This document shows positions 5,296-29,542 of a stretch of DNA of 37,161 nucleotides, piece after piece (position 1 is the stretch's first letter; the number at the start of each line of letters is the position of its first letter). The position numbers and the translations under genes were made by a program. The stretch comes from Paludibacterium sp. (lineage in GTDB: Bacteria; Pseudomonadota; Gammaproteobacteria; Burkholderiales; Chromobacteriaceae): contig NZ_JAFAND010000005.1 of the NCBI RefSeq assembly GCF_019232825.1, forward strand, positions 1-37,161, given 5' to 3'. The notes below the pieces were generated by a model. That model was given only the letters and a program-made list of their open reading frames with translations. It did no database searches and was not told where the DNA came from.

Positions 5296-5967
5296 TCAAT
5301 GATCACGATTGTCCCAGGTGCGGAAACTGCCATTGCCTGGCACGCCAACGGGTTCGAGGTTGCCGTCCTCCGCCGTGCTGACTTCGATGGCGAGCGGCGC
5401 GGACGCATAGGCGCCAAGCGAGCGCCGGACCTGCGTGGTGAGGAAGTTATTCTTGCGCGCCGCCACCCCCGGGGTATGGTCGGCCGGGGTGTCGTGCATT
5501 TCGGCGCCATACTGCGCTTTGCGCAATTCGATGGTGTTGAACAGCGACCAGTCGGCGGTCTTGTAGACGACGCCGCCACGCCGCCATTCCATCTGGCCGC
5601 CGTTGCGGCTTTGCTCATAGGTGTCCGCCGCGTTCGGCGCGCCATCCCAGCCGATACGGTATTGGTTGTTCTTGTCGGTGTACTCCCAGTAAACGTGAGG
5701 CGCGCCATCCTTGAACTGGTCCCAGCCGCCCTGAACCCATTGCATGGGCGCGTCCACCCCGCCATTGTCGATGCCGCACCAGGCGGCGATGGCGATGCCG
5801 TCGACGGGGGTCGGCTGATAATCGATGGTGGATTTGGCGCCGTCGAACCAAGGCGCGGCGTCTAGCAAGTCGTAATACGATTCGTAGCCGCGCGCCGCGA
5901 GGCTGGGCACGGCCAGGGCCAGCAACAGCAAGCCGGCGCAGGGGAAGAGGACATGATGGTTACGCAT
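5296..5967 (-). CDS. Exported Trp/Tyr-rich protein of unknown function, second gene of CdtB-like cluster
   Basis: A 223-residue protein starting at the ATG at 5967 (AAAGGAG about 7 bases upstream). A signal peptide covers about residues 1-24 (core AGLLLLALAVPSLAA). The mature protein is rich in Trp, Tyr, Gly and Asn, with stretches such as MQWVQGGWDQFKDG and HVYWEYTDKNNQYRIGW. These suggest an extracellular beta-sandwich or carbohydrate-binding fold, but I cannot name a family. Only one cysteine is obvious in the mature region. It lies 19 bases after the CdtB-like stop codon and 16 bases before the next exported-protein gene. CdtB proteins of known toxins act with carrier subunits, so a delivery role is conceivable, but no ricin-type repeats are visible. 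Confidence 0.78.
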   Translation of the reverse strand: MRNHHVLFPCAGLLLLALAVPSLAARGYESYYDLLDAAPWFDGAKSTIDYQPTPVDGIAIAAWCGIDNGGVDAPMQWVQGGWDQFKDGAPHVYWEYTDKNNQYRIGWDGAPNAADTYEQSRNGGQMEWRRGGVVYKTADWSLFNTIELRKAQYGAEMHDTPADHTPGVAARKNNFLTTQVRRSLGAYASAPLAIEVSTAEDGNLEPVGVPGNGSFRTWDNRDH

Positions 5968-5986: not shown

Positions 5987-6724
5987 TTAGGAAAACAGCA
6001 CCGCATAGTGGTCGGAATACCCCATATCCAGGCGCTCCGCCGGCGCGATGCCAAGATTGCCGGTTTGCACCGCGTAGTCGATAACGCGCTCCGGGCTCTC
6101 CGAGTCGGGTGACCGGGGGTGGGTGTAATGATCCGGTTCGACGCTGTTCAGATCGCAATCATGGGTCGGCTGGCTGAGCACTTCACCGTTCCAGAGAATG
6201 TCCTGCGGTTCTTTGTTGTAATCGCCCAGCGCGACCCACGGCCCATCGCCGACGGTGGTCCAGATGTTGGCCAGTAGATCCTCGACGTCCCAGCCGTATG
6301 CCGCGCTGGCGTGAATGGAGAAGTACCAGGTATCGTCGAAAAAGAGCCCGAGTCCAGGCCGGGTTTCGGCAAAGGTGGTGGCCGCATCGTCGGGTTCCGC
6401 AGCGGACAGCACGGCCAGATTGACCCGATGCGCACCCGCGTCCAGTTCGGCATAGCTGACGTAGAAGTCTTGCTGCCGTTCGCCGTCTTCGCTCTCCGCT
6501 GTCCAACGATAGACGGTCACCGGCCAGCCGCCCGGTGAGAATTCCGACACATATTCCGATTCGCCCGGCAGCTTGTCGGGCAAGACGCCACACTCCTGTA
6601 ACGCCACGATGTCAGGGCGGTCCTCGTCGTTCTGGTCGAGCAGCCAATCGGCCAGCGCTTCCCACTTGGCCTTGGGCGATGTGCTGGTTCCCGCGCCCTG
6701 CATATTCCACGTCATCAGTTTCAT
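5987..6724 (-). CDS. CdtB-like endonuclease/exonuclease/phosphatase-fold protein
   Basis: A 245-residue protein of the metal-dependent EEP hydrolase superfamily, most like the cytolethal distending toxin B subunit. Visible family signatures are TWNMQG (Asn7), LQECG (Glu44), the CdtB-type block DAGAHRVNLAVLS (about 95-107), FSIHAS (His138), GDYNKEP (Asp168, Asn170), VIDYAV (Asp216) and the C-terminal SDHYAVLF (Asp238, His239). All expected catalytic positions are present, so it should be an active DNase or phosphatase. Unlike classical CdtB it has no signal peptide: the ATG at 6724 (SD GGGAG) begins directly with the core strand. The length matches a mature CdtB. Two exported-protein genes follow at 19- and 16-base gaps, and cqsA diverges upstream. 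The alternative is a non-toxin EEP enzyme; the VNLAV block and overall length favour the CdtB branch. Confidence 0.82.
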   Translation of the reverse strand: MKLMTWNMQGAGTSTSPKAKWEALADWLLDQNDEDRPDIVALQECGVLPDKLPGESEYVSEFSPGGWPVTVYRWTAESEDGERQQDFYVSYAELDAGAHRVNLAVLSAAEPDDAATTFAETRPGLGLFFDDTWYFSIHASAAYGWDVEDLLANIWTTVGDGPWVALGDYNKEPQDILWNGEVLSQPTHDCDLNSVEPDHYTHPRSPDSESPERVIDYAVQTGNLGIAPAERLDMGYSDHYAVLFS

Positions 6725-6968
6725 GATTTCTCCCTCGTCGATTGCGTTGTCTATAGTGCTTTTGTCTTAAGACGAATGCGTATTAATGACGATTGGCAAG
6801 GCGCGGGTGTGAGGCGAAATCGCAACGGCATACACAAAGGCGTTATGCAATTTGGGATAGATTAGGCGGGCAACGCTGCGGCCCCTTCCCAGTGGGGCGG
6901 CGGCGTTTTACGCCCGGCAACGTCTGTTGTCCGGGTCAATGACAACTGCTCTCCCATGGAGAAGTAAC
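6725..6968. other. Divergent control region between CdtB-like cluster and cqsA
   Basis: This 244-base gap must hold promoters for both divergent units. I found no convincing -35/-10 pair on either strand by eye. The cqsA-proximal half contains two hairpins (annotated separately). A good ribosome binding site GGAGAAG lies at 6958-6964, which decides the ATG at 6969 as the cqsA start. Confidence 0.6.
6875..6935 (+). promoter_or_regulatory. Two hairpins in cqsA leader; first is terminator-like
   Basis: Hairpin 1 pairs GCTGCGGCCCC (6875-6885) with GGGGCGGCGGC (6894-6904), 9 of 11 positions, across an 8-base loop, and is followed by GTTTTAC. That resembles an intrinsic terminator reading toward cqsA. 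Hairpin 2 pairs CCCGGCAAC (6913-6921) with GTTGTCCGGG (6926-6935) with one bulge. No plus-strand gene lies just upstream to need a terminator, so attenuation or RNA-level control of cqsA is possible. The short U-tract is weak. Confidence 0.42.
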
Positions 6969-8246
6969 ATGACTCATCGCGTTATGCCGTTTCACCGTCA
7001 ACCTCTTTTCCGCAATGCGCCGGAACCGGCCTTCCTTTCCCGTCGGGTCGAGGGGTATTACCAAGAGCGCGTCCACAACACCTGGGATGGCGGCCACATC
7101 ATGCGTGGTCGGCATCCGGGGGGGGATGCCATTCACCTGAGCAGCAACGACTACTTGTCGGTCGCGCGCCATCCCAAGATTCTGCAGGCGGCGGCGGATT
7201 GCCTGCTGGCCAGCGGCAATGGGCTGTTGATGTCGGGGATTTTCTTGCATGGGGACAACCCGCTATTGGATCTGGAGTTGCGCCTGGCGAATTTCATGGG
7301 GGCGGAGGCGGGCGTGTTGTGCCAATCCGGCTTTGCCGCCAACACCGGGCTCATCCAATCGATTGCCGACGAGACCACGCCGGTCTATGTGGACATGATG
7401 GCGCACATGTCCTTATGGGAAGGCATCCGCGCGGCCTCCGCGCGCGCCGTGTCGTTCCACCACAATGACATGGCGCACTTGGCGCGGCAGATCCAGAAGC
7501 ATGGCCCGGGCGTGATCCTGGTCGACTCCGTGTACAGCACCAACGGCAGTGTTTGCCCGCTGGAGACGCTGGTCGAGATCGGCACGCAATCCGGCTGCGT
7601 GCTGGTGGTGGACGAGTCTCACTCGCTGGGTACCCATGGATCGCATGGCGAGGGCATGGTGGCGGCGCTGGGGCTGTGTGACCAAGTGCATTTCCGCACC
7701 GCGAGCCTGGCCAAGGCCTTTGCCGGTCGAGCCGGTTTCATTTCGTGCTCGGAGCGCTTCAGCGAATACTTCAAGTTCGAGTCGAATCCGGCGATCTTCA
7801 GCTCCACGCTGTTGCCGCACGAGATCGCCGGTCTGGCCGCCACGCTGGAGGTGATCCACGATGAACACTGGCGCCGCCGCGCGCTTGAGGCCAATGCCGC
7901 CTTGCTGCGCCAAGCGTTGGACGATTTGGGCTACAACCTCAACGGCAGTCAGTCGCAGATCATTGCGCTTGAGTCCGGCAGCGAGCGTCAGACCATCGTG
8001 TTGCGCGATGCGTTGGAGGCGCGCGGCATTTTCGGCTCCGTATTCTGCGCGCCGGCCACGCCGAAAAACCGCGCGCTGATCCGGCTATCGGTCAACGCGA
8101 TGCTGACCCCGGACGCCTTGGCCCGCATCGTCGATGTTTGCCGTGAAATCCGCGGCGAGGTGGGGCTCGCCGACTGGGCGTCGACGCGGCGCAAAAAGGC
8201 CCAGTCGGCCGCGCCGGCCGAGCCGGCAGAGGCGGCTGTCGCTTAG
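6969..8246 (+). CDS. cqsA: CAI-1-type autoinducer synthase (PLP-dependent alpha-oxoamine synthase family)
   Basis: A 425-residue CqsA/LqsA/JqsA homologue. The family condenses an acyl-CoA with an amino-acid-derived substrate to give precursors of alpha-hydroxyketone autoinducers in the cytoplasm. Strong signatures shared with Vibrio CqsA are SNDYLSVARHP, AHMSLWEGIR, HGPGVILVDSVYST, LVVDESHSLGTHG (PLP-binding Asp and His) and TASLAKAFAGRAG, whose Lys249 should form the PLP Schiff base. SSTLLPHE and GSVFCAPAT further along are also typical. The ATG at 6969 has GGAGAAG upstream; an in-frame TTG at 6927 lacks one. Relative to Vibrio CqsA (389 residues) it has longer N- and C-terminal tails, the latter Ala/Arg-rich. 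Its stop TAG overlaps the stop of the opposing regulator gene. The neighbouring kinase and regulator are the expected receptor system, so local production and sensing are likely. Confidence 0.95.
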   Translation: MTHRVMPFHRQPLFRNAPEPAFLSRRVEGYYQERVHNTWDGGHIMRGRHPGGDAIHLSSNDYLSVARHPKILQAAADCLLASGNGLLMSGIFLHGDNPLLDLELRLANFMGAEAGVLCQSGFAANTGLIQSIADETTPVYVDMMAHMSLWEGIRAASARAVSFHHNDMAHLARQIQKHGPGVILVDSVYSTNGSVCPLETLVEIGTQSGCVLVVDESHSLGTHGSHGEGMVAALGLCDQVHFRTASLAKAFAGRAGFISCSERFSEYFKFESNPAIFSSTLLPHEIAGLAATLEVIHDEHWRRRALEANAALLRQALDDLGYNLNGSQSQIIALESGSERQTIVLRDALEARGIFGSVFCAPATPKNRALIRLSVNAMLTPDALARIVDVCREIRGEVGLADWASTRRKKAQSAAPAEPAEAAVA

Positions 8247-9274
8247 CCGTTGGATAGAGGCGCGGGCGTTCCTTGCGTGTCGAGCCACGCAAGGAAGTCC
8301 CGATACGAGGCGATGTCGCTGAATTGGCGGCCGGCCGGGTTCGAGACCACGGCATAGTAGTACCATTCCTGACCTTGCAGGGCGGTCGCCGGATACAGGC
8401 AGCTGCGCCAGTCAGGGCAACTCGGGTGGTACTCGCCCTGCGGCGTGCGGAAGTAGGGGACGTAGCGCTTGCTCGCCAGCCGCGCCAACAGCGCGGCTGG
8501 CGCGCCCTGATCCTGGGCGATGTCGAAATGGCTTTCCAACTCTTCCGCCGTCTTGATGATCAGCAGATGCGCCGCGCCCTGCGCGTCGAGCATCAGGAAG
8601 CCATCCGGCGTGGAGGTCAGGTAGAACTCGACGATGCCGCGCTCGGCGCGAATGCGATGGAAGGTCCCGGCGAAGGCGGCGTCTTGCAGAAAACTGTGCG
8701 AGCCGAGCGACAACGCTTCCCCCACGGTGCGTGCCATTTCCTGGAAATACGCCAGCTGCAGTTCCGCGATCGCCTGATTGAGCGTGGGGATCACCTCGGC
8801 ATCCTGTTTCAGGATGAAGCGGTCGATCAGCCGTTGGTTGAACGCCTGTACGGCCAGCTTCTCATCGGCCTTGCCCGTCAGCAGAATCTTCTTGATCGCC
8901 GGGTTCTTGATGTTGCGGCAGAACGCCAGCCCATCGACCTCCGGCATGTCATAGTCGACCACCACCACCGATACCCGCTCGAAACGGCGGCGGTTGTGCA
9001 CCTCGCGCAAGATGTGGTCGAGATTGAGATCGAGGACGTGGTGCGATAACGGCAAATCGTCGCCGAAGTGGGAGACGGAAAAAAAGCGCTCCACCAGCGG
9101 CGAGCTCGATGACGAGCCGTTCAGATCCACCAGCGCGTCGAACGGCGAGTCGTACAGACGGAAAGCCAGATTGGCGTCGAGCTGCAATCCCAGGTTATCG
9201 AGGAACGCGCGGCTATCGTCGACCAGCATCACCATCGAAGGGAAGTAGAGGGGAGGAATGTCGTAACGTTGCAT
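8243..9274 (-). CDS. Response regulator of the alpha-hydroxyketone quorum-sensing system (LqsR/JqsR-like)
   Basis: A 343-residue protein with an N-terminal receiver and a C-terminal domain of unknown class. Receiver landmarks from the ATG at 9274: acidic pair Asp19-Asp20 in MLVDDS, phospho-acceptor Asp107 in VVVVDYDMPEVDG, Thr133 in LLTGK, and Lys156. A roughly 45-residue insertion with a poly-Ser stretch lies between the acidic pair and Asp107, making the receiver unusually long. The output half (about 170-343) has no helix-turn-helix, GGDEF or other motif that I recognise. Length and context match Legionella LqsR. The ATG shares one base with the stop of the kinase gene upstream (TGATG), so the two are translationally coupled; a TTG one codon earlier is less likely. 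It converges on and overlaps cqsA by 4 bases. A direct DNA-binding role is not supported by sequence. Confidence 0.88.
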   Translation of the reverse strand: MQRYDIPPLYFPSMVMLVDDSRAFLDNLGLQLDANLAFRLYDSPFDALVDLNGSSSSSPLVERFFSVSHFGDDLPLSHHVLDLNLDHILREVHNRRRFERVSVVVVDYDMPEVDGLAFCRNIKNPAIKKILLTGKADEKLAVQAFNQRLIDRFILKQDAEVIPTLNQAIAELQLAYFQEMARTVGEALSLGSHSFLQDAAFAGTFHRIRAERGIVEFYLTSTPDGFLMLDAQGAAHLLIIKTAEELESHFDIAQDQGAPAALLARLASKRYVPYFRTPQGEYHPSCPDWRSCLYPATALQGQEWYYYAVVSNPAGRQFSDIASYRDFLAWLDTQGTPAPLSNG

Positions 9275-10593
9275 CAATCGTCCACAGCGGGAAAGGTTAA
9301 AACGAATTCGCTGAATTCTCCCAGCGTCGACCAGCAGAGGATGTTGCCGTCAAATGCCTGCATTACGCTGCGGCAATATGCTAATCCTATTCCAGCGCCT
9401 GAACCATCGTCATGTCCTAACGACCAGGAGTAAAAGCGGGTAAAAATATGCGGCAGCACTTGCGGGGGAATGCCGGACCCCGTGTCGCGGAACGTCAGCC
9501 GGCCGCCCTCGGGCAGTTTCTCCACACGGATCAGAATGTCGCCCTTGCCTGCCTGGGCAATATGGCGCAGCGCATTTTTCAGTAGATTGAACAGCACGTG
9601 CACCATCAACAGCTCGTTGCCGAAAAAGTCGAAGTCTGCCGCGATCTCGACGCGCACGAGCTGACGTTCCTTGTCCGTGGCGAAGGGGTAACGCATGAGC
9701 GCGGTGTCGAGGCAGGCCGACATGACGCAGCGATTGAAGGTGACATCCTTGAAATCGAACGGCTTGGCGTTGGCCAGCAGCATGTCGATGACGATATTGG
9801 AGTAGTTGACCTCTTCCTCGATGCGCTCCAGCACTTTGCGCATTCCCTCCTGATGCACCTCCCGGATCGGGCCGATGGCGAATCCGGCCTCCCGGGCCAA
9901 GCGATAGGCATCGAGCAGCGCGGGCAAGTGCTGCTTCAGACCGGTGGCGCCGGCCTTGATGCCCAATAGCGGCGTGCGCAGTTCGTGGGCGATCATGCTG
10001 GCGGTGCTGCGCATGGCGCGCAGCCTCTCCTGCTTGACCATGTCGGCGCTGTAATTGGCGACGGCGCCCAGCACGATGATGAACAGGTAGACCGGTATCT
10101 GCTCGCGGGCAAGAAACGTCAGATTGGGCTCGGGCGAGGTCCAGCGATAGGCGAGCCATGCGCAACCGACACCGACGACGAAGTGGATGGTCAGGTTGCG
10201 CCAGTCGAGCAACAGCACCATGAGAAAGGCCGCGGTCAGCGCGGACGAGATCCAAGCGATGCAGCCGCCGTTTCTCAACAGCATGTAGGTGAAGAAAAAA
10301 GGCAGCGCGTAGAGGATCGTCAGATACCAATACACCGGCAGGTAGCGCCGCCAAGTTTGCGGCCAATACTTGGCCAGCATGATGGGCACGAACAGCGCGC
10401 TGCCCGCCAGGCGCAGCGGCAGATTCTCGTAGGGCTGCGGGAAGAGATCGTGCCAGACGAAGTAGTAAAGCGGAAAGCCGATCACCGCCACGAGCCCGAA
10501 CGGGAAGAAGCGGGGTTCGAAATACTCGACGCTGCGCGCCATGCCGTCGAAAATCTGCCGCAGGGCGCTTGTCGTTTGAGGAATCTCTGTCAT
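9274..10593 (-). CDS. cqsS: CqsS-family membrane histidine kinase (autoinducer receptor)
   Basis: A 439-residue sensor kinase. The N-terminal half has about six membrane segments and carries the CqsS-type stretch GFPLYYFVWHDLFPQPYENL, close to Vibrio CqsS GFPAYYFIWEYWFPQSYENL. The kinase core has IAHELRTPL (His203), N box NLLKNALRH, G1 DTGSGIPP and G2 GSGAGIGLAYC, ending LTFPAVDD. Vibrio CqsS carries its own receiver domain. This protein stops after the ATPase domain, and the receiver is supplied by the next gene. The start is the ATG at 10593 (MTEIPQ), because homology begins there and the upstream open frame is shadow of the pilus genes. The Shine-Dalgarno sequence is weak. The expected role is to sense the CqsA product in the inner membrane and switch phosphate flow to the adjacent regulator. 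Confidence 0.92.
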   Translation of the reverse strand: MTEIPQTTSALRQIFDGMARSVEYFEPRFFPFGLVAVIGFPLYYFVWHDLFPQPYENLPLRLAGSALFVPIMLAKYWPQTWRRYLPVYWYLTILYALPFFFTYMLLRNGGCIAWISSALTAAFLMVLLLDWRNLTIHFVVGVGCAWLAYRWTSPEPNLTFLAREQIPVYLFIIVLGAVANYSADMVKQERLRAMRSTASMIAHELRTPLLGIKAGATGLKQHLPALLDAYRLAREAGFAIGPIREVHQEGMRKVLERIEEEVNYSNIVIDMLLANAKPFDFKDVTFNRCVMSACLDTALMRYPFATDKERQLVRVEIAADFDFFGNELLMVHVLFNLLKNALRHIAQAGKGDILIRVEKLPEGGRLTFRDTGSGIPPQVLPHIFTRFYSWSLGHDDGSGAGIGLAYCRSVMQAFDGNILCWSTLGEFSEFVLTFPAVDD

Positions 10594-10631
10594 GTTGGCT
10601 GACGGTGAAGCAAGGGGCCGCGTTGGTTGAT

Positions 10632-10652
10632 CGCCGCGCGGGGCGCGCGGCG
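10632..10652. terminator. GC-rich hairpin between pilus operon and cqsS
   Basis: Perfect 8-bp stem CGCCGCGC (10632-10639) / GCGCGGCG (10645-10652) with a 5-base loop, in the 128-base gap after the last pilus gene and 39 bases before the cqsS start. There is no T-tract on the minus-strand RNA, so it may only pause or partly terminate, or act as an RNA processing boundary. Nothing else is recognisable in the gap. Confidence 0.4.
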
Positions 10653-10721
10653 GGATATTGTGGCACAGCCCGGTGAGAGGCGAAATCCTACGTGGATACC
10701 CGGCGGAAAATAGGGCGGTCG

Positions 10722-11138
10722 TTAGCGCGGAAACAACCGCCGCCAGGCCGCTTGCACTTGCCGCTGATAGCGCGCGTTCAGCGCTGGCGTGGCGGAATGG
10801 TAACGGCCGACGCCACGCCAGACGTCGCCGGGATATTCGTCGATCGCGCGGCGCAAGATCCACGCGCCGACCTGTACGTTGTAACAGGTGTCGTCGCGCA
10901 ATTGCCGATAGGCCTCGGCGCGGTCGCCGGCGAAGTGCGCGCGCGCCGCCAGATCGAGCCAGGCGCCGGTATTGATCTGCATGACCCCCAGATCCTCGGT
11001 CCGATTGCGGTTCACCGACGCGGCGCCCGCCGAGCCGCCCTCGACCTGGATGATCGCCAGCAAAAGCTCGGGCGGCAGCGCTTGCACGCTGGCGGCTTGC
11101 AGCACGCAGGCCGCCAGCATGGCGCTTAAAGCGGCCAT
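10722..11138 (-). CDS. Pilus-associated lytic transglycosylase (R64 PilT type)
   Basis: A 138-residue soluble lytic transglycosylase with an N-terminal signal peptide (about 1-20, MLAACVLQAASVQA). The catalytic Glu33 sits in AIIQVEGG, and the lysozyme-like signatures DLGVMQINTGAW and the later GVGRYHSAT follow. It would cut peptidoglycan locally so the pilus machine can cross the wall. In IncI1 plasmids this gene is called pilT, a name that elsewhere means the retraction ATPase, so I give no symbol. The ATG at 11138 has GGAAGGTG upstream and overlaps the end of the prepilin peptidase gene by 13 bases, making it the last gene of the pilus operon. Confidence 0.88.
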   Translation of the reverse strand: MAALSAMLAACVLQAASVQALPPELLLAIIQVEGGSAGAASVNRNRTEDLGVMQINTGAWLDLAARAHFAGDRAEAYRQLRDDTCYNVQVGAWILRRAIDEYPGDVWRGVGRYHSATPALNARYQRQVQAAWRRLFPR

Positions 11139-11905
11139 GCGCCACCTTCCGGCAAACCCAGACAGATGAGCCAGGTCAGGCACAGCGCCGGCCCCATCGG
11201 CATCCAGATATGGCCGCGCCGTCGAGCGGGCAGCGCGCAAGCGGTGAACAGCAGCGAGGCCAACAGCAGGTAGGCCGGCAGCCGCGCGAGTCCAAGCCAT
11301 GCACCGGCGGCGGCGGCGAGCGCGATGTCGCCGCCTGACAGCGTGTCCAGCCGCCGCCAGCGCCCGGCCACAGCCATCGACAGCCACATCAAGGCAAAGC
11401 CGGCAAACGCGCCCCAGACGCGCGCCGCGAGCGACGGTTCGAAGGGCGACAACAAGAGCCCTACCCAGAACAGCGGCAGGGTCACCACGGCCGGCAACCA
11501 CGCCTCGCGCCAGTCTATCTCAGCCAGAAACAGCAGTACCTGCCACAATAGGCAGGCGGCCCAACCTTGGGCGCCCGTGCCGAACCACCACAGTGCCAAG
11601 ACCCAGCTCAGGCCGCCGATGGTTTCGACGATCGGGTGGAGCGGCGAAATGCGCGCGCGGCAATCCGGGCACCGGCCGCGCGCCAGGCACCAGCCCAGTA
11701 CCGGCAGCAGGTGGCGCCAGCGGATGCGCGTGCGGCAAGCGTCGCAGCGCGACGGCGGCGAGGCGAGCGTCAAGCCGGGCTCGGCGTCGTCGCGCCAGCC
11801 TAGCTGGTGCGGCAGGCGCGCCGCCGCCAGACGGCCGAAGCTCGTCAGCACGGCGCCGACGCCGGCGGCCAAGGCGAGGAGCGTGGGCAGGGGCAGGCTA
11901 ATCAT
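11126..11905 (-). CDS. pilU: Type IV prepilin peptidase (PilU/PilD family)
   Basis: A 259-residue polytopic membrane aspartyl protease that removes the leader from the pilins and in this family may N-methylate the new N-terminus. The cytoplasmic loop keeps the four-cysteine zinc motif (Cys54, Cys57, Cys79, Cys82 in CDAC...CPDC). The catalytic aspartates are in FLAEIDW (Asp131) and SGGDI (Asp193). The usual LPD after the first Asp is LPA here, a tolerated change. It starts at ATG 11905, overlapping the pilV stop by 8 bases. Substrates within the operon are the PilS-like major pilin and PilV. Confidence 0.92.
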   Translation of the reverse strand: MISLPLPTLLALAAGVGAVLTSFGRLAAARLPHQLGWRDDAEPGLTLASPPSRCDACRTRIRWRHLLPVLGWCLARGRCPDCRARISPLHPIVETIGGLSWVLALWWFGTGAQGWAACLLWQVLLFLAEIDWREAWLPAVVTLPLFWVGLLLSPFEPSLAARVWGAFAGFALMWLSMAVAGRWRRLDTLSGGDIALAAAAGAWLGLARLPAYLLLASLLFTACALPARRRGHIWMPMGPALCLTWLICLGLPEGGAWPL

Positions 11906-21826: not shown

Positions 21827-22336
21827 TTAGCGGAAGGTCCAGGCGAGATCTTGCGTGGCGCCGGTACAGAGCGCCGCGGCCGCCTTGCCCGGCGAGCTCG
21901 CATCGGCACCGCCAATCTTCATTTTCATCAAGGAGCTGCCCAGGTCTTGGCCGGCCAGCGTTTGGCAGGGGCCTTGCGGGACTTTGGCCATCACCACGTC
22001 GTAGGTGTCGGTGGCGCCGGTCACGGTCAGGTTGCCCCATGGGCTGATCAGGGTATTGCCCGATTTTTGCGAGGCGGGAATGTTGCTGCTGCGGGCCAGG
22101 TCGGCGGTGACCAAGCCGGAATAGTTCGCCGTACTGCCGGTGATGGTTTGCACGGTGCTTTGGATCATGCCGAGCTGGCCCAGGGCAACCTGTGATTTAT
22201 TGTTTTCGGACGCGCTTTGGTAGTACATCACCGCACCCGCCACCACCACGGCGGATAGTGCCAGCACCATGGCCGCCTCGATCAGGGTCAGGCCGCGTTG
22301 ACGGCGTTTGATATTGTTGATGTATTGCTTTCGCAT
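21827..22336 (-). CDS. pilS: Major type IVb pilin (PilS)
   Basis: A 169-residue prepilin. The basic 15-residue leader ends RRQRG, the cleavage point is G15|L16, and the mature N-terminus LTLIEAAMVLALSAVVVAGA has Glu at position 5. The mature pilin is 154 residues with two cysteines (124 and 157) near the C-terminus that should form the D-region disulfide loop. A leucine as first mature residue is typical of type IVb pilins. The ATG at 22336 has AGAGGGA upstream. It is the first gene of the pilus operon, separated from the next by 84 bases and a hairpin, consistent with the most abundant product coming first. Confidence 0.93.
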   Translation of the reverse strand: MRKQYINNIKRRQRGLTLIEAAMVLALSAVVVAGAVMYYQSASENNKSQVALGQLGMIQSTVQTITGSTANYSGLVTADLARSSNIPASQKSGNTLISPWGNLTVTGATDTYDVVMAKVPQGPCQTLAGQDLGSSLMKMKIGGADASSPGKAAAALCTGATQDLAWTFR

Positions 22337-22531: not shown

Positions 22532-23161
22532 TCATTCCGCTTGCCAGTCCGATTGAAAGTCGAACAGCCAGCGGTTGCGTTCCCAATACAGCCGCACGGT
22601 CAGCACGGACGTGTCCGGCGACGGGTAGAAGGGGACGGCGTCCGTAAAGGTCTGCACGGTGAAGTTTTCGCCGTCCAGCAAGGGTGCCGCCACCATGAAG
22701 TACATGACGGGGTCGTATTCGAACGTACAGGTCATGCCCCAATCGACGCCGGGCACGGTCAACACCGGGCTGCCGCCGACGCGCCATTGGCAATCGAGGG
22801 GCAGGGGGGGCTGGGTCATGTTGAGTACGCCGGATTGCTCGGTGGTCAGTCTGGCGATGGCCTGGCCATCGGAGGCCGGCATGAGTTTGGGGGACAGCCC
22901 GCCGGGCCGAACCGCTTGAAGCAGCTCGCCGGGCGTCACCGCCACGGCTTCCGACGCCACGCTATTGCCGCGCATGTTGGCGCTGACGCAGGCCGATATG
23001 GTGGTATCGAAGTCGAACGAGGCATATGCGCCGGCGGAGAGATCCAGCACTTGCCAGGCGTGGATGCGGATATTGCGTGTTGGGCGCAGAGGCCGCAAGA
23101 AGACGAGGACGGATTTGCCGCGCATGTCCGCCACGTCCGCAATGACGATGCACTTCATCAT
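22532..23161 (-). CDS. Paralogue 3 of a ~210-residue uncharacterised family
   Basis: A 209-residue soluble protein with no signal peptide or membrane segment, and no family that I can name. It aligns end to end with the preceding gene product. Shared blocks include DMxGKxVLVFLxP, RNxxIHAWQVL, SAGA followed by SFD, GGLSPKL, LTxEQxGVxNxT, FEYxP with YFMVAxP, and VQxFxD. The repeating hydrophobic/aromatic pattern suggests an all-beta fold. The ATG at 23161 has GGGAGAA upstream (a second ATG follows immediately). It is the last gene of the sigma-factor operon, 85 bases after paralogue 2. A structural or effector-like subunit is plausible but unproven. Confidence 0.82.
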   Translation of the reverse strand: MMKCIVIADVADMRGKSVLVFLRPLRPTRNIRIHAWQVLDLSAGAYASFDFDTTISACVSANMRGNSVASEAVAVTPGELLQAVRPGGLSPKLMPASDGQAIARLTTEQSGVLNMTQPPLPLDCQWRVGGSPVLTVPGVDWGMTCTFEYDPVMYFMVAAPLLDGENFTVQTFTDAVPFYPSPDTSVLTVRLYWERNRWLFDFQSDWQAE

Positions 23162-23246
23162 GGTGTTCTCCCGCGTCCGGGGTCGGCGCGCGTCGTGGTC
23201 GGCGCGGCGCGGCATCGCCGCACCGCGCCGGGTCAGGCGGAAGGCC

Positions 23247-23873
23247 TTAGCTGGCAGCGAAGTTGAACGTCCACAGCCCCTTGTCCTTGGTCAAGGCCAC
23301 GTCCACCTCGGTGGCGGTGATGGGCATCTGGTACACGGTCATGTCCGAGAAGTTCTGCACGATGTAGGTTTGGCCAACCATCGGCGGCGAGGCCACCATG
23401 AAGTAGAAGTTCGGCAGATACTCGAAGCTGACGGTCATGTTGGCGTCCACATAGGGCATGGAGACCACCGGACGGTCATTGACGTACCAGTTGCTGTTGA
23501 ACTGAGTGAACGGGTTGGTCTGGTTGATGACGCCGCATTGCTCCGGCGTCAGCTTTTCCAGGGCGAGCGAGGTCGGCGCCAGTTGCAGCTTGGGCGACAA
23601 ACCGCCCGGGCTCGTGGCCGAGAACAACTGGCCCGGGACGACGGTCTGACGGCCGGAGATGATGGTATTGCCGGGTTTTTCGCCATCGCTGGTCACGTCG
23701 GTGGAGATCGTCGCCTCGTAGTCGAACGACTCGGTGGCGCCGGCCGAACCGGTGAGAACCTGCCAGGCATGGATCAGATAGTTGCGTTGCGGGTTTTGCG
23801 GCTTGAGAAATACCAGGACGGTTTTGCCCTGCATATCCTCGACATTCATCGTCACATTGAAACGCGTGCTCAT
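23247..23873 (-). CDS. Paralogue 2 of a ~210-residue uncharacterised family
   Basis: A 208-residue soluble protein, close in length and motif order to the gene product that follows it (MQGKTVLVFLKPQNPQRN, IHAWQVL, GGLSPKLQLAP, FEYLPNFYFMVASP, VQNFSD). Among the three copies it has the strongest ribosome binding site (AGGAG, 7 bases before ATG 23873). It has a single cysteine and no export signal. The 247-base gap before it contains two hairpins and a complete dispersed repeat, so it may have its own promoter or reduced read-through from the operon. Function unknown. Confidence 0.83.
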   Translation of the reverse strand: MSTRFNVTMNVEDMQGKTVLVFLKPQNPQRNYLIHAWQVLTGSAGATESFDYEATISTDVTSDGEKPGNTIISGRQTVVPGQLFSATSPGGLSPKLQLAPTSLALEKLTPEQCGVINQTNPFTQFNSNWYVNDRPVVSMPYVDANMTVSFEYLPNFYFMVASPPMVGQTYIVQNFSDMTVYQMPITATEVDVALTKDKGLWTFNFAAS

Positions 23874-23904
23874 CGTGGACTCCTAATTGTCGTGATCATG
23901 GGGT

Positions 23905-23977
23905 GGACTCGGAAACTTCCCGCGCCGCAAGCCGAGTCCCGATGCGCTTGCGGGCGGCTTTGGCCATGAAGGCCAAA
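23905..23977. promoter_or_regulatory. Two perfect hairpins upstream of paralogue 2
   Basis: Stem GGACTCGG (23905-23912) / CCGAGTCC (23932-23939) with a 19-base loop, and stem TTTGGCC (23959-23965) / GGCCAAA (23971-23977) with a 5-base loop. Both lie in the leader of the gene starting at 23873. They could be terminators, leader structure, or remains of a mobile element next to the repeat at 24011. No T-tract follows on the minus strand. Confidence 0.4.
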
Positions 23978-24010
23978 TCCTGAGGGGCTGTTTGCAATCG
24001 CCCGAGTTTT

Positions 24011-24123
24011 TGTAGCGTGCATTCGCCGCAGGCAATGCACGTCTAGAGCGAGTCCTAGGACCGTGCGTTGCTTCGCGAACGCACGCTACCCAACCGCGAA
24101 ATGTGTCCTGTTAGAGGTTCTTA
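24011..24123 (-). repeat. Dispersed 113-bp structured palindromic repeat, copy 1
   Basis: About 103 of 113 bases match the reverse complement of 36728-36840 by hand count. Outer arms GTAGCGTGC / GCACGCTAC enclose two small hairpins: GTGCATT / AATGCAC (24017-24023 with 24034-24040) and GTGCGTT / AACGCAC (24063-24069 with 24078-24084). Weaker similarity may extend leftward to about 24000. The right end supplies the TAA stop codon of the gene at 24121. The structure resembles a REP/BIME or MITE-type element; no transposase is nearby. Confidence 0.8.
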
Positions 24124-24774
24124 GTGCGCCGCCGAGGGCGGCATGAAGTCGTAGACCGGCGGGCCGCCCGCCGGCTGGCTCAGCGTGACCGTGACACGGC
24201 GCGCGTAAGTCGGCGCGCGGTAGCGCGTGGCGCTGGCGAGTTCCGCCGGTGTTAGCCGTTGCGGCAAGCGCTCCGGCGCTACCGGATAGAACAGCAGCGT
24301 GTCGCCGGCACAAAACAGGGCGGCTTGGCTCGGCGCCAGCGGCGAGGTCGTGCCTGCCGGCGATTGATCCAAAAACCAGTCGACGGCCAGGGCGAACGGC
24401 TCAATGCCAAGCGAAACGGCCGTCATGGCGGTCGCCTCCCCGCCTGTCTCTCCCACCTGCGCGACGCTCAACGTGCGGCGATCGGGGAAGGCCAGGTAAC
24501 GCCGACCCGGGATCAGCGGGGTCGGTACGCTGGCATCGAGCACCGGTGTCGCGCCGTCCTGACGCGCCACCGCCGATAACCGGCCCTCGTAACGAAAGAA
24601 TTCGCGCGCGCCGGCCGAGGCGTTCAAGCATTGCCAGGGCAGATAGTGGAAATCGCCGCCGGCCACCGGCGAACCATCGCAGGCCTGTACGGGGTGTGGC
24701 GCGTACAGGTTGGTCACACAGACGATCGTGGCCAATGCCGTGTCTTGGTTGATGAATGTGTATTCGATGGTCAT
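24121..24774 (-). CDS. Divergent paralogue 1 of the ~210-residue family
   Basis: A 217-residue soluble protein without signal peptide. It is much more diverged than the other two copies but keeps the order of features: an N-terminal strand, the block PWQCLNASAGAREFFRYEG (compare AWQVLTGSAGATESFDYEA in paralogue 2), a central Pro/Gly-rich region, and a C-terminal VYDFMPP resembling LWTFNFA. Its last codon and stop lie in the end of the dispersed repeat, so the C-terminus may have been reset by that insertion. The ATG at 24774 has AGGAAA upstream and is 78 bases after the collar-protein gene. Confidence 0.78.
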   Translation of the reverse strand: MTIEYTFINQDTALATIVCVTNLYAPHPVQACDGSPVAGGDFHYLPWQCLNASAGAREFFRYEGRLSAVARQDGATPVLDASVPTPLIPGRRYLAFPDRRTLSVAQVGETGGEATAMTAVSLGIEPFALAVDWFLDQSPAGTTSPLAPSQAALFCAGDTLLFYPVAPERLPQRLTPAELASATRYRAPTYARRVTVTLSQPAGGPPVYDFMPPSAAH

Positions 24775-24852
24775 GGCTTTCCTGGCTTTTGGCTCTGTGT
24801 TTATCTGTTTTGCATAATGAAGACGTTGCCGCGGCGCGAAGCGTGAACACCT

Positions 24853-25509
24853 TTATTCAGGCCACCGCGGAAGTGGCCAGCATTTGGCGATAACGTCATT
24901 TTTTGTATACTTTATTATGAAATTTACATAAACATTTTTGACCCGCGTCTCCGCCGCCTGACGGGCGCTGATCGGCGGCGTGAAGCCGCTGGTGGGGGCC
25001 ACCAAGCCATTGGTTTGCGGATCGGGCGTTTGATAGCGGCCGAAGACCGGGCTTCCTTCGGCGGCTAAACCGCCGGGGATGGCCATCTTGTAGAGATGTT
25101 CATGCGCTTGCAGCGCGTCGTCTTGCACGGTGCCGACCTGATTGCCCTGCCAGCCGCCATCGCCCGACGGCAGCCGCTGCGTGGCGTCCGGATCGCGCAG
25201 CCGTTGGTCTGGCCCCTCGGCGCCGTAATTGACGCCGCGCAGTCCCCGCCCGCGGTAGTCCGGCAGCAGAAAGAAGCCGGCGCCGGCTTGGCCGTAAATG
25301 TGGCCGATGACGCGGAATAATTCCGGGTAGCGCGCCACGGCCAGCGCGCGGCCGTCGCACACCAGCCAGCCTTGCCGGCTGAGGTGCAGGTCGTAGGCGC
25401 GAGACGCCGCGTCCGGATAGCCTTGCTGCGGCGAACCGTCGGTGGCGTTGACCGGCGCGGCGTAGGGCAGGATGGCGCCCACCGGCAGCATCGTGTGGCC
25501 GGCGATCAT
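24853..25509 (-). CDS. Phage tail-collar-domain protein
   Basis: A 218-residue protein with an N-terminal tail-collar (microcystin-dependent-protein type) domain. LPVGAILPYAAP is followed by GWLVCDGRALAVARYPELFRVIG, IYGQAGAGFFLLPDYRGRGLRG (about 71-92) and a C-terminal HEHLYKM region that resembles fibre-tip receptor-binding parts. Members of this family form trimeric fibre collars in phages and stand-alone surface or tail-like proteins in bacteria. No signal peptide is present. The ATG at 25509 overlaps the stop of the 1030-residue gene (ATGA), so the two products are translationally coupled and likely made in fixed ratio. No other phage structural gene is in the window. Confidence 0.85.
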   Translation of the reverse strand: MIAGHTMLPVGAILPYAAPVNATDGSPQQGYPDAASRAYDLHLSRQGWLVCDGRALAVARYPELFRVIGHIYGQAGAGFFLLPDYRGRGLRGVNYGAEGPDQRLRDPDATQRLPSGDGGWQGNQVGTVQDDALQAHEHLYKMAIPGGLAAEGSPVFGRYQTPDPQTNGLVAPTSGFTPPISARQAAETRVKNVYVNFIIKYTKNDVIAKCWPLPRWPE

Positions 25510-28500
25510 CGCGGCGTCTCCGGGTCGGGCAGACTGTCGCCGGCTTGCAGGATCAGCATGGGCGTGGCGATTTCCACCTCCCAGCTTTCCACGGGACGCG
25601 GCGTGGCGGACTCATGCTGTGCCGACTTGATGGCGTTGACGAGCCAGCCATCGTCTTCGCTGACCGGGCAGTCCTCCGGCGCGCCGCGCCAGAATTGCCC
25701 CTGGCTTGCGAGGTAAAACAACCAGGGCAGGGTGTGGGGCGGCTTGACCGGCACCAAGAGCCGGGCGCAGCCCGCCTCCAGAAACGCCGTCATGCCCGGG
25801 GCGTCGCATAGCGTCTGGCGCAGCGTCAGAGTGTCGGGACGTTCGGTGTCGTCGCTGCCGAAGAAGCGGGCGTAAAAGTTGTAAGTGGCCTCGTCCCAGG
25901 CCAGCGCCTCGCTCAACAGCGGCGCGAGCGCCAACAGCGCGGCGTCCTGGCGCCAGGCGGGCGATATGGGAGGCAGCTGCGCCATGCATTGTTCGGCGAG
26001 GCAGGCAATCGCCGCTTGCTGCAGCGCGGCCAGCAACGTTTCGCGCTGTCGTTCAGACGGCGCGCGCGATAGCCCTTCCGCCAACGCGCTCATGATCTCC
26101 AGGTAAGCATCGCGTTGGGCGCGATAGGCCGAGATGATGCCGTTGTATGCCGTGTGCTGCCATTGCCGATAGAGCGTCGAATCGTCGCTGCAAACGCCGG
26201 TGAGGGTAATGTTGACCACGTATTCCAACCCGGCGGCGACGACCGCGGCGGGCACGCCGGTGGTGCCGGGAGGCAGCGCGGGCAAGGGCTTTGTGCCGGG
26301 ATTGGCGTCAGCTGCGGGATCGATCTTGATGACCGTCCCGCCGATCAGGATGTCCAACGCGGCCGTGCCGCCGGCCTGATCCGTCCAGCCGTAACCGATG
26401 GTGCCGCCGTTGACCGTGTATCCGGGCGCAATGGCGAGTTCCGCCTGCGGGCTGGGCGGCGTGCTGGTCAGCGAGGCGGACATGCTCAGTGTCAATGGCG
26501 GCGGCGCGACGATCGGCGCGTTGTAGCGGGCGGCGAGGGCGGCATAATTGTTGCGGTTGATGTCCAGGGCGGATTGAACCGGCGCAATGCCATCGCCGCC
26601 TTGCCATGGCGGAATCGGCGCGCGCGCGTCGCAGCCGTGCAGCGTATTGTTGCGGCGGACGTAATCCCGCGCCGGATCGGCCAGGACGATTTCCACGATC
26701 AGCCGGCTGCCGCGCGGCTCCAAGGTGGCGGCATGAATCTCGTCCACCCAGCGATAGATGCCGACCAAATTCGCCGCGCCGGTCTCGTTATCGAAACGAC
26801 GCCGGGTGCGTTCGACAAACTCCTCGACCGATCGGCGCTTGCGCGCGGTCTCCATCTGATGATCCGTGCGCGCCGCTGCCTGCGAGAGCAAGTCGCGCGC
26901 GTGCGCGGCGGCGTTTTGCGCCAAGGTGGCGGGGCCGCTCGGCGTATCGGTCCAATCGCCGGTCACCGTGACCGATAGGCCGTCGGCGCCGTAGGCCTGC
27001 TTCAGATTGTCGAATTCGCGCTTGAGCGCGTTGAGCGGGTTGGTCTGATTGTCTTGCGCCTGGCGCGCCTGGCCATGGTCGTGTCGCGCGCGCGACGCGC
27101 TATCGCTGTCGCGATGCGTTTCCAACGCCTGCTGTTCGATGCGGCGGCTGGTTTCCGCGCTGCGCTCCTTGGATTCGCCGCGCATGACGTTTTCGATATG
27201 GGCGATCGCGCCCAAGCGGTAGCGGACCAGGCATTGCTTGATGACCTGCACCTCGGCCAAACCCAGCGGGCGGGCATAGCCTTGCGGCTCGGCCGTGTTG
27301 TCGGCCGGCGGCACCATCAGCGCCGGCGGCAAGAGCACGCTGGTTTGCAGCGGTTCGCGCAGGTGCGCCGGACTGTCGAGCCGTGGCGCCGCGCGCACGG
27401 CGAGCTCCGCCGTGTGGCAGACGCGCAGCGCGCGGATCAGCGCGCCCGCATGTTCGTACTGTTCGGGCGCGGCGATGAGGTCGGCGACCAGGCTGTTCTG
27501 CAGCTGGGCCAACTGCGCGGCATAATCCGGCAGGCTGAGAAAGTCAGCGGCGGATAGGCCCAATAGCGCTTGCAGGGCGGTTTGCAACGCGGCCAGATCG
27601 GGGGGGCGCAGGGCGAGGAATGCCCGTGTCGCGGAGCCGGTCAGCCGGCCCATCGGTCCGCTGAGCTTGCCAATGCGCTGGACAAACTGGCCTGGGTATT
27701 TTTTCGAATCGACGCTGACGAAGTCCAGCGCCTCCGCCTGCATGGCCTGCCGGCGGGTCGGCCCGCTCAACGCGCGCAAGGCGTTTTGAAAGTCGGTGTC
27801 ATTGTCGACGGACGCGAAGCGGCGCGCCCATTGCCCCGGCGTGGGCGGCAGAATGGCGCGCGGGTAGGCGAAGGAGGCGAACTCGCGCGGCCGGCTGAAG
27901 ACGACCCCTTGGCCTGGCGTCGGCACCGTGTCCGGGGGCGTGACGGGCGTGCACGGAAAGCGCGCGAGCCGGACCGTCTCGCCGGGCTGGCGCGCGTGGC
28001 GCAGCCGGACATCGATCCAGGCCTCTCCTTGCGCGGACACGCGCATTTGCAGGGTGACGGCCGCGTGACCGTCGGCGCCGCGGCACTCGCCTTGCCATAG
28101 CGGCTCAAGCGGGCTCAACATCACTGTCTCGCCCGGGCCATTGTCGGCGGCGTGGAGGACGAGCCGAGCTGCCAGGCCGGCTTGCGCCGCGCCCTCGATG
28201 GTCCAGTCGATGGTCAGCCCGTCGTCGCCAAGCGTCTTGCTGCCGGAAACCGGCGCGATGCCGCTACAGGGATCGCAAATCTGCCATGCGCACAGGCATA
28301 ACGTTCGTTCCTCCGCCGTTCCGTAATGGCAGGTGATGTCGAGATCGAGCGCATCGCCGGCTTCATTGGCGTGCAGATCCAGCTCGCCCCAGGCCATGAG
28401 ATCGTGGTCGCATAGTTCGAACCGTTGCCGCGGCGATAGGCTATCCAGTTGCCGCTGGGCTGCCGCCGCGCCGAGACGCAGGTCGCAGGCCACTTGCCAG

Positions 28501-28598
28501 CCCATGGGGACCGCTTGGCCGAACCAGGCGATTTGAAAGTCGCCCCATGTCCATTGTCCCGCTTGCGATTGCCCCGCCGGATCGTCGATGTCATGCAT
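25506..28598 (-). CDS. 1030-residue protein of unknown function, core of the sigma-factor operon
   Basis: A very large soluble-looking protein with no signal peptide or clear membrane segment. About 1-225 looks beta-rich with several cysteines (CLCAWQICDPC). The central part (about 445-600) starts with RYRLGAIAHIENVMRGESKE and continues as a charged Arg/Glu/Gln/Ala-rich probable coiled coil. About 700-800 is Pro/Thr/Gly-rich and beta-like. The C-terminal part (about 815-975) is helical and holds TYNFYARFFGS and AGCARLLVPVKPP. From memory, the IENVxxGE and ARxxVPV motifs recur in large uncharacterised bacterial proteins, but I cannot verify a family. The ATG at 28598 has GGAGG 9 bases upstream, overlaps the sigma gene by 8 bases and overlaps the collar gene at its end. 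Confidence 0.85.
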   Translation of the reverse strand: MHDIDDPAGQSQAGQWTWGDFQIAWFGQAVPMGWQVACDLRLGAAAAQRQLDSLSPRQRFELCDHDLMAWGELDLHANEAGDALDLDITCHYGTAEERTLCLCAWQICDPCSGIAPVSGSKTLGDDGLTIDWTIEGAAQAGLAARLVLHAADNGPGETVMLSPLEPLWQGECRGADGHAAVTLQMRVSAQGEAWIDVRLRHARQPGETVRLARFPCTPVTPPDTVPTPGQGVVFSRPREFASFAYPRAILPPTPGQWARRFASVDNDTDFQNALRALSGPTRRQAMQAEALDFVSVDSKKYPGQFVQRIGKLSGPMGRLTGSATRAFLALRPPDLAALQTALQALLGLSAADFLSLPDYAAQLAQLQNSLVADLIAAPEQYEHAGALIRALRVCHTAELAVRAAPRLDSPAHLREPLQTSVLLPPALMVPPADNTAEPQGYARPLGLAEVQVIKQCLVRYRLGAIAHIENVMRGESKERSAETSRRIEQQALETHRDSDSASRARHDHGQARQAQDNQTNPLNALKREFDNLKQAYGADGLSVTVTGDWTDTPSGPATLAQNAAAHARDLLSQAAARTDHQMETARKRRSVEEFVERTRRRFDNETGAANLVGIYRWVDEIHAATLEPRGSRLIVEIVLADPARDYVRRNNTLHGCDARAPIPPWQGGDGIAPVQSALDINRNNYAALAARYNAPIVAPPPLTLSMSASLTSTPPSPQAELAIAPGYTVNGGTIGYGWTDQAGGTAALDILIGGTVIKIDPAADANPGTKPLPALPPGTTGVPAAVVAAGLEYVVNITLTGVCSDDSTLYRQWQHTAYNGIISAYRAQRDAYLEIMSALAEGLSRAPSERQRETLLAALQQAAIACLAEQCMAQLPPISPAWRQDAALLALAPLLSEALAWDEATYNFYARFFGSDDTERPDTLTLRQTLCDAPGMTAFLEAGCARLLVPVKPPHTLPWLFYLASQGQFWRGAPEDCPVSEDDGWLVNAIKSAQHESATPRPVESWEVEIATPMLILQAGDSLPDPETPR

Positions 28599-29268
28599 GG
28601 TCGTAGCCTCCGTCCCATTCAGCTGCGGCGTCGTTCAGGGCCGCCAGGGGAAAGGGGGACAGACCCAGCCCGTCGCTGTCGCCCACATAAGGCCGCAAGT
28701 GTTGCACCAACAGGCGGCGCGCCTCTTGCGCGCGCTTGCGGGCGTTGACTTGGGTGATGCCGAGTTCCTGCGCAATGACCTCATAGCTGGCCTCGTGCAA
28801 AAAGCGCAGCTCGGCCACCGCCAATAGCCTGGGGGGTAACGTCTCCAGCGCGTATTGGATCTTTTGCCGCAATTCGCCGATGAGTAGCTCTTGCTCGGGG
28901 GAGCGTGGCCTGTTGCCGCAGGTCTCTTGCAGATGCGTGAGTTGTTGGCTATGACGCGCCTCGGCCTGGCGTGTCCGTTGCAAGTCGATGGATTTGTTTT
29001 GCGCCACGCGCCGCAGCCAGCCGCCGAGGTGGCGGATGCTGCGCATTTGTTCCGGTTGCTCGGTGATGAGTTTGAATAGCACCAGGCTGAACAGATCGCC
29101 GGCCTCGTCGGTATCCCCGCCGGCCAATCGCCGGCATTGATATTTGAGAAACCCCTGGTAGCGCGCGACCACGAGCGCAATCGCGCCGTGTTCGCCGTCG
29201 GCAATGGCCTGTTGCAGCTGAAGATCGAGGGGGGGCTTTGCTTGCGCAGCGAAGCGTTGAGTTGTCAC
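28591..29268 (-). CDS. ECF-like RNA polymerase sigma factor
   Basis: A 225-residue sigma-70 family factor with only regions 2 and 4. Region 2 (about 28-101) includes DLFSLVLFKLITEQ and the HLGGWLRRVAQNKSIDLQR recognition stretch. Region 4 (about 134-190) has LETLPPRLLAVAELRFLHEASYEVIAQELGI-type helix-turn-helix architecture ending VNARKRAQEARRLL. A roughly 35-residue C-terminal tail is unusual and may be regulatory. No anti-sigma gene is adjacent. The start is GTG at 29268 with GAGGAAG upstream. It is the first gene of the operon and overlaps the 1030-residue gene, so it probably directs its own operon. Confidence 0.9.
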   Translation of the reverse strand: MTTQRFAAQAKPPLDLQLQQAIADGEHGAIALVVARYQGFLKYQCRRLAGGDTDEAGDLFSLVLFKLITEQPEQMRSIRHLGGWLRRVAQNKSIDLQRTRQAEARHSQQLTHLQETCGNRPRSPEQELLIGELRQKIQYALETLPPRLLAVAELRFLHEASYEVIAQELGITQVNARKRAQEARRLLVQHLRPYVGDSDGLGLSPFPLAALNDAAAEWDGGYDHA

Positions 29269-29542
29269 TGTGTCTTCCTCAATGCGATAGCGGCCGGAAC
29301 GGCCAGGTGGGACGGACTCAATTCATAAAGATGTAGAAAGTCCATATCGCAACGACTATGGCGCTGTCTTGCTTTTTATTCGTGCGTCATAGGGAGTGCT
29401 TGCCGGGAAGACGAAGGGAATTGGCAGGATGTGAAGCCGTGATCGTGGGAAAGAGAGCGGCGCCGCGCTACCGTGACGGTGGCGACGGAGGGGGGCATTC
29501 GCGTGACGGGCCGGTGTTTAACCCAGGAACCCTTTGAACCCG
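29269..29542. other. Intergenic region upstream of sigma-factor operon
   Basis: A 274-base gap between two minus-strand genes. It should hold the sigma-factor promoter and the end of the MFS transcript. A perfect GGCCG-GAA-CGGCC dyad (29292-29304) lies 24 bases upstream of the GTG and could be an operator or leader hairpin. I see no convincing core promoter, terminator with T-tract, or small gene. Confidence 0.45.

Follow-up and report, generated by a model that had tools for sequence, protein, structure and literature searches.

A recurring six-gene set with an ECF-type sigma factor in Paludibacterium sp.: a possible inducible antagonism locus

Autoregulated extracytoplasmic function (ECF) sigma factor regulons and the T4 gp12-like short tail fibre or tail-collar proteins (PF07484) are the described systems closest to a set of six genes that we analysed in Paludibacterium sp. 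The set lies on a stretch of 37,161 nucleotides (contig NZ_JAFAND010000005.1, positions 1 to 37,161; hereafter the window) and encodes a sigma factor (sigma), a protein of 1030 amino acids (LARGE), a tail-collar protein (collar) and three smaller proteins (S1, S2 and S3). As in autoregulated ECF regulons, sigma has sigma-70 regions 2 and 4 and a two-block motif stands at its own and at neighbouring genes; here, however, the unit contains no recognised anti-sigma factor or membrane partner, and the trustworthy sites are local and precede uncharacterised and toxin-like genes. The collar is by sequence a member of the tail-collar family, but it is encoded beside LARGE and outside any recognised phage or injection locus. 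Further likenesses, to the CdtB family, the PixA inclusion body proteins and Lqs/Jqs quorum sensing, are taken up where the respective genes are described.

What is seen directly comprises the genes themselves, the fact that they are conserved together, a common promoter motif, the sequence signature of S2 and the toxin-like neighbours. The reading we prefer, with a probability of about 0.35, is that of an antagonism arsenal that can be induced, has a cytosolic complex of S2, LARGE and collar at its core and is carried as a portable regulon with its own on-switch.

Gene layout and recurrence of the set

According to the list of open reading frames (ORFs) of the window, the six genes run in the order sigma, LARGE, collar, S1, S2 and S3 on the minus strand from 29268 to 22532. 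The gene for sigma (28591..29268, 225 amino acids, GTG start) overlaps that for LARGE (25506..28598) by 8 bases, and the latter overlaps the collar gene (24853..25509, 218 amino acids) by 4 bases. Spacers of 78, 247 and 85 bases lie between collar and S1 (24121..24774, 217 amino acids), S1 and S2 (23247..23873, 208 amino acids) and S2 and S3 (22532..23161, 209 amino acids). The place and strand of these co-oriented ORFs and both overlaps agree with an initial annotation of this DNA, which had described a six-gene operon. Order and strand bear this description out, but in view of the three gaps and of a second exact promoter motif between collar and S1 the genes probably do not form a single simple operon and fall into at least two transcription units. 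For S3 the ATG at 23161 was taken as the start in place of 23215; it is the more likely of the two, since S3 homologues align from there. A stretch resembling a repetitive extragenic palindrome was seen by eye in the S1–S2 gap (24040–24090), with a similar one near 36806–36833.

A pattern scan based on the S2/S3 alignment across 84,980 species genomes yielded 92 matches, of which 17 are relatives, at 16 loci, a lower bound since an exact short peptide match was required. These 16 loci (numbered with L below; genomes with G) came from 14 genomes, including Sulfurimicrobium and Sulfuricellaceae metagenome-assembled genomes (MAGs), Chitinimonas viridis, C. prasina, Duganella sp. 1224, an Oxalobacteraceae strain and three Pseudomonas (the Pseudomonas set being partial). 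The full order sigma–LARGE–collar–S1–S2–S3 was found in seven of the 16 (L042, L044, L045, L046, L047, L051 and L054), and three more (L043, L056 and L057) fit it up to their contig ends. S2 stands alone in L048, L050 and L055, the MAGs of the first two carrying a larger set elsewhere. A genome of another order within the same class (G217) has LARGE by profile, sigma by tblastn, and collar, S2 and S3 by eye. The neighbourhood survey thus found co-occurrence, with the set recurring as a unit in other genomes.

The distribution of the set is patchy. Of 398 genomes of the phylum (its own counted), 7 have LARGE or a more distant relative, as do 2 of 240 genomes of the class of G395 (G395 counted); LARGE was found in none of five genomes of the same genus and 31 others of the same family. 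Eight of 399 genomes of the order (its own counted) gave an S2 match, three of them weak or broken; the matches in G496 and G556 (with stops) and G516 (a fragment) were not counted as operon members. At L033 (10300–10629, G516) a short ORF resembles the C-terminal half of S2 only.

For sigma, LARGE, collar and S2 the distances between pairs of loci (eight loci) correlate with r of 0.86–0.93. With the outlier L053 and the near-duplicate L045 left out, r was 0.73–0.82, values reached in 1–11 of 2000 label permutations. The parts therefore appear to be mostly inherited together.

The sigma factor, its promoter motif and the toxin-like neighbours

Sigma exceeds the cut-off of NCBIfam TIGR02937 (80.7 bits against 42.9) and passes those of Pfam for Sigma70_r2 (24.6 > 24), Sigma70_r4_2 (32.9 > 25.7) and Sigma70_r4. 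The upstream regions of the related loci have a common motif, TTCAC-N16/17-CGTCTT. In the window this occurs in exact form (N17) upstream of sigma (29408..29435, minus strand), where it suggests probable autoregulation, and in a second exact copy between collar and S1 (24820..24847, minus strand). Among 12 loci, the window counted, the motif upstream of sigma was exact in nine and had one mismatch in two; upstream of S1 it was exact in ten and had one mismatch in two. The sigma gene of L039 has at best a two-mismatch site. In total, 24 exact sites were found in the window and the 16 related loci, whereas 100 dinucleotide-preserving shuffles of the same sequences gave 0.15 on average and never more than 1. 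The 24 are not independent, since the loci are related. Nine of them precede sigma, ten S1 and five other genes (two in L042 and one each in L046, L047 and L054). The dedicated sigma factor proposed in the initial annotation is supported by these sequences: it is probably self-activating through the motif before its own gene, with a probable local regulon of at least two transcription units.

No anti-sigma factor or membrane partner was recognised among the six genes, and the upstream neighbour of sigma is an MFS transporter (Pfam). Many ECF groups have no anti-sigma factor. An exact motif (N16) was also seen before a small ORF with a hydrophobic N-terminus at L065 (G000, contig C142, near position 1118), which may be a further regulon member or a chance occurrence.

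A CdtB-like protein (5987..6724, minus strand, 245 amino acids), a putative regulon member, is encoded at a distance from the six genes. It exceeds the cut-off of PF03372 (31.9 bits > 24.5) and matches the CdtB family model NF011787 with an E-value of 3.4e-30, but its 105.1 bits lie below the cut-off of 189 and no signal peptide was seen, making it a relative of the family rather than a member. Behind it on the same strand are genes for two probably exported, uncharacterised proteins, one of RGYESYYDLLDAAPWFDG type (5296..5967, 223 amino acids, with a hydrophobic N-terminus) and one of SDYLG type (4464..5279, 271 amino acids). CdtA or CdtC neighbours were not found, as neither of these two downstream proteins had an NCBIfam match (E 0.001), and their counterparts in L042 had no Pfam match at E 0.05. 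The gene order of the CdtB-like gene and the exported pair in the window (6724–4464) is as in L042, where exact motifs stand approximately 60 bases before the CdtB-like gene and approximately 480 bases before a gene with a GH64 domain (PF16483, 37.8 bits > 27). Upstream of the CdtB-like gene of the window there is a degenerate site, CTCAC-N17-CGTCAT (6786..6813, minus strand), which with two mismatches is weak by itself; as such sites are common by chance, the regulon membership proposed for this gene rests on its synteny with L042.

Homologues of the RGYESYYDLLDAAPWFDG-type protein were detected by tblastn in L042, L044, L045, L046, L047 and L050. In both Chitinimonas loci (L046 and L047) an exact motif precedes a pair of probably exported proteins, and in L054 one precedes an ORF of an unrecognised kind. 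EndoU-type genes were found by tblastn in six of 21 loci (L044, L045, L046, L047, L051 and L052, the last at 33% identity and on the opposite strand); the three that were scanned with Pfam (L044, L046 and L051) exceed the PF14436 cut-off, and the EndoU genes of L044 and L045 begin approximately 30 bases behind S3. A further S2 copy follows the genes for exported proteins in L044 (13091–15392), L050 (460–2874) and L048 (10–1056, after the end of a YLG-type gene). As judged from their sequences, these toxin-like neighbours point to antagonism and not to a surface structure alone.

S proteins, LARGE and collar

The three S proteins had been annotated as paralogues, and this was upheld: S2 shares 47% identity with S3 over 200 residues, and S1, with a weak pairwise match to S2 (25% identity, E 1.2e-4), was joined to S2/S3 by profile comparison (97.7% probability, E 1.4e-12, 162 columns). 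Proteins of L040 are possible distant relatives of this family (45.5% probability, E 2.2e-4). S1 evolves fast whereas S2 is the most conserved product of the set, with identities across relatives of 28–43% for S1, 22–49% for LARGE and 65–90% for S2, and changed nonsynonymous sites (pN, relative to the window) of 0.41–0.51, 0.36–0.59 and 0.06–0.17 respectively. In S2, nonsynonymous change was far below synonymous change. The codon adaptation index (CAI) of S2, 0.778, was the highest among 24 genes of the window (next 0.713) and was reached by none of 115 other segments. The reference for the CAI is small (six minus-strand ORFs on one piece of a ribosomal contig, spanning 0.64–0.87 and including a 439 amino acid ORF that scored lowest).

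No match to LARGE or S1–S3 was obtained in Pfam, NCBIfam, PHROGs or PADLOC, and PDB sequences searched with LARGE and S2, and with profiles for LARGE, for S2/S3 and for S1, yielded no significant match. An anti-phage defence system was rejected, as the PADLOC models gave no match among nine proteins at E 0.01. Relatives of S2 and of LARGE were not found in phage and viral collections, and S2 had no match in a plasmid collection. Signal peptides and export were judged by hydropathy only; by this measure none of the six proteins has a clear signal peptide, the start of S3 being moderately hydrophobic.

The codon bias and constraint of S2 would also suit an intracellular inclusion or store formed under stress or at high density, with LARGE and collar as accessories and no antagonism involved, and S2 occurs without LARGE in L048, L050, L052 and L055 (the L048 and L050 MAGs holding the larger set elsewhere, as noted). 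The S proteins resemble the PixA inclusion body proteins (PF12306) in being, as we infer, cytosolic and of around 200 amino acids. There is, however, no homology by profile comparison with four PixA proteins (probabilities of 0.1% and 0.2%), and an identity with PixA was rejected. Toxin-like neighbours that have the same promoter motif in relatives also speak against a mere store, which we hold to be unlikely.

S2 is preceded by a possible leader element (23905..23953, minus strand), a hairpin with a GGACTC loop; a GAGTCC further downstream is complementary to this loop, so that an H-type pseudoknot could form. The hairpin with GAGTCC or a near copy was present in nine of 19 S2 leaders (the window, L042, L043, L044, L045, L049, L051, L054 and L057); no such element was seen in the other ten, and no Rfam family corresponds to it. 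Eight leaders were analysed (L057 was omitted as nearly identical to L045), with hairpins of 8–13 positions and at most two mismatches and a loop–tail helix of 6–9 bp (one mismatch in L054). Their hairpin scores were reached by 0–11 of 1000 flank shuffles. While the sequence of the stem varies among loci with its pairing largely kept, the loop–tail helix is nearly invariant, and covariation therefore does not separate an RNA pseudoknot from a DNA operator; both are possible.

Distant relatives of LARGE were found in Streptomyces, Tsukamurella, Sinorhizobium/Ensifer, Chryseobacterium, Cupriavidus, Aulosira, Nonomuraea and the haloarchaeon Natronorubrum, so that the family spans bacteria and one haloarchaeon. 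A patatin-like phospholipase adjoins the LARGE relative, or lies one short ORF away, in three (L007, L010 and L036) of the six LARGE loci outside the operon whose neighbours were scanned with Pfam. These data suggest that LARGE is widely shared and may have different enzymes as its partners. The LARGE relative at L002 (265–3204, G052) has a C-terminal T2SSG domain (Pfam, 62 bits). Neighbours of LARGE in Tsukamurella (L008, 15831–16916) and Ensifer (L011, 11354–12433) have similar FSH and WxWGC stretches by eye and are perhaps another recurrent partner.

The collar matches PF07484 with 55.2 bits (cut-off 24), the short tail fiber of PDB entry 9cuy with an E-value of 2.9e-4, and tail families in PHROGs. 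The HxH motif, typical of short tail fibre tips, is present in all 12 collars compared. The collar gene lies beside LARGE in the window and in all ten related loci that have a collar, as well as, by eye, in L039; a collar gene in L040, seen by eye only, was not counted. The initial annotation had singled out a collar unaccompanied by other phage parts, and this was supported by sequence, since among 29 ORF products of the window searched with Pfam, and the six proteins searched with PHROGs, the collar was the sole structural kind: genes for sheath, tube or baseplate, or for any other part of a phage or contractile injection system, were not recognised. The collar domain and its PHROG tail matches speak for the remains of a prophage, of a tailocin or of a contractile injection system that is already known. 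Such a locus was nevertheless not recognised here and was rejected, no other structural part being recognised and no phage or viral relative of S2 or LARGE being found in the collections searched; conservation of the set in other genomes and the low nonsynonymous change in S2 further argue against it, and we regard this origin as very improbable.

A surface or released filament or particle, with S2 as the major subunit, S1 and S3 as minor ones, LARGE as base or scaffold, collar as receptor-binding tip and the enzymes as secondary, is by our estimate nearly as likely as the arsenal, since such an assembly accords well with a codon-biased, constrained S2 that lacks a signal peptide, with the two paralogues of S2 and with a fibre tip. 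S2 is highly constrained and codon-biased and accompanied by two diverged paralogues, the collar is related to short tail fibre tips with HxH conserved, and the lack of clear signal peptides is as in phage-tail-like particles. The unrecognised tube, sheath, baseplate and lysis genes count against a particle, as does the lack of S2 or LARGE relatives in the phage and viral collections; moreover, LARGE and collar are missing from L049 and L052, where sigma and S genes are present. The proposal of the initial annotation keeps the dedicated sigma factor, the recurring set and the lack of other recognised phage genes in its favour, but its surface, extracellular or particle-like assembly is a conjecture; the proteins have no clear signal peptides, some loci have the sigma and S genes alone, and the neighbours are toxin-like.

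Neighbourhood, proposed mechanism and significance

Between the two parts of the proposed regulon lies a type IVb pilus cluster (11126–22336) with genes for bundlin, TcpQ, a PilN-type secretin, PilO, T2SSE/F, a prepilin peptidase and a shufflon-type pilin. It directly follows S3 on the same strand (bundlin at 21827–22336), which would suit an adhesion or biofilm island in which the S proteins and collar bind surfaces together with the pilus. Queries with bundlin, secretin, T2SSE and T2SSF were however unmatched in 20 other loci (of approximately 20 kb or shorter), and S1, S2 and collar have no clear export signal. We consider adhesion improbable, slightly more so than an inclusion. Both the inclusion and pilus-linked adhesion are less likely than the arsenal or the particle, and a phage or injection origin is disfavoured.

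Divergent from the CdtB-like gene is that of an alpha-hydroxyketone quorum-sensing autoinducer synthase (6927..8246, plus strand; NF005526, 602.4 bits > 428), followed by a response regulator (8243..9277, minus strand; PF00072) and a histidine kinase (9274..11145, minus strand; PF02518). The synthase also adjoins the CdtB-like gene in L042 (77% identity), where the regulator and kinase have neighbouring counterparts (64% and 70% identity); the best NCBIfam match of the window's kinase is LuxN, far below its cut-off. In work on Janthinobacterium, jqsA, jqsS and jqsR are reported as the synthase, kinase and regulator genes, and a JAI-1 box, TTGA-N6/7-TCAA, is reported (PMC3566124, PMC5080296). 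The window resembles Lqs/Jqs systems in having the same three gene kinds adjacent, with the synthase over its curated cut-off, but differs in gene order. The JAI-1 box is absent at the sigma operon; quorum-sensing control through it was rejected, and quorum control is therefore a clue from the neighbourhood only.

In the arsenal that we favour, the ECF-type sigma factor would recognise TTCAC-N16/17-CGTCTT and switch on sigma itself, LARGE and collar from one copy of the motif and S1–S2–S3 from the second. Codon-biased S2 would then accumulate in the cytosol with its minor paralogues S1 and S3, joined by LARGE as a putative carrier and collar as a putative receptor-binding tip. The same switch may turn on the nearby enzymes, in the window the CdtB-like putative nuclease and the two probably exported proteins and in relatives EndoU or GH64 enzymes, promoter sites being present for some of these. 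Eukaryotic grazers, fungi or competing cells would be the likely targets. The assembly, release, toxicity and target of the set are all what we infer.

Several observations weigh against this arsenal. The parts are not obligatory partners, since some loci have partial sets: L053 comprises sigma–LARGE–collar–S2 without S1 and S3, L049 sigma–S1–S2–S3 without LARGE and collar, and L052 sigma and three S2 copies, likewise without LARGE or collar, so that the sigma/S part can stand by itself. Before the sigma gene of L053 the motif is also missing. Across whole genomes it shows no specificity, with nine exact matches (N16–18) in the window's own genome compared with three for the reversed control, which is no clear excess, and four and three in the two Chitinimonas genomes (G564 and G598) compared with three and four. 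Sites away from the locus were for this reason not trusted, and position at the locus, where four of the seven Chitinimonas matches lie at the sigma locus, is the sole argument for the motif. Two-mismatch sites, as before the CdtB-like gene, number 11 in the window with approximately six expected by chance. Apart from the CdtB-like protein of the window falling short of its NCBIfam cut-off, its L042 counterpart scores 22.6 and just misses the Pfam cut-off of 24.5, and for the GH64 protein a clear signal peptide is lacking. A search of the window's own genome for EndoU found no gene, but its control genomes were silent as well, and a dedicated secretion or lysis gene was not recognised. The roles given to LARGE and S1–S3 are guesses.

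A more specific version of the arsenal, which we put forward as rather doubtful, would make LARGE, collar and S1–S3 a new type of toxin-carrying complex unrelated to phages, in which LARGE, as a carrier common to bacteria and archaea, takes interchangeable enzymes, collar aims them, S2 provides the bulk, the self-activating sigma factor switches the set on and a pseudoknot leader RNA sets S2 output. With similar doubt, the interchangeable enzymes would be CdtB-like, EndoU and GH64 proteins here and patatin-like phospholipases in other lineages.

Among the matches listed from open-licence literature, no description of such a locus was apparent, in keeping with the earlier view that the system had not been described. 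The novelty of the set rests on sequence searches, and a known fold of LARGE or S2 could turn it into a variant. Although four of the six proteins have no curated family in four libraries, the complete set turns up in different hosts (Chitinimonas, Duganella, Sulfurimicrobium and other MAGs). Its promoter motif is readable, and the regulon is therefore predictable and testable in named isolates, the Chitinimonas strains among them. If S2 should be abundant cytosolic material only, the set would still reveal a family of exceptionally constrained proteins that has a leader element of its own; if a carrier with interchangeable enzymes is true, it would represent a principle of delivery or storage that does not derive from phages and is not one of the known secretion systems.

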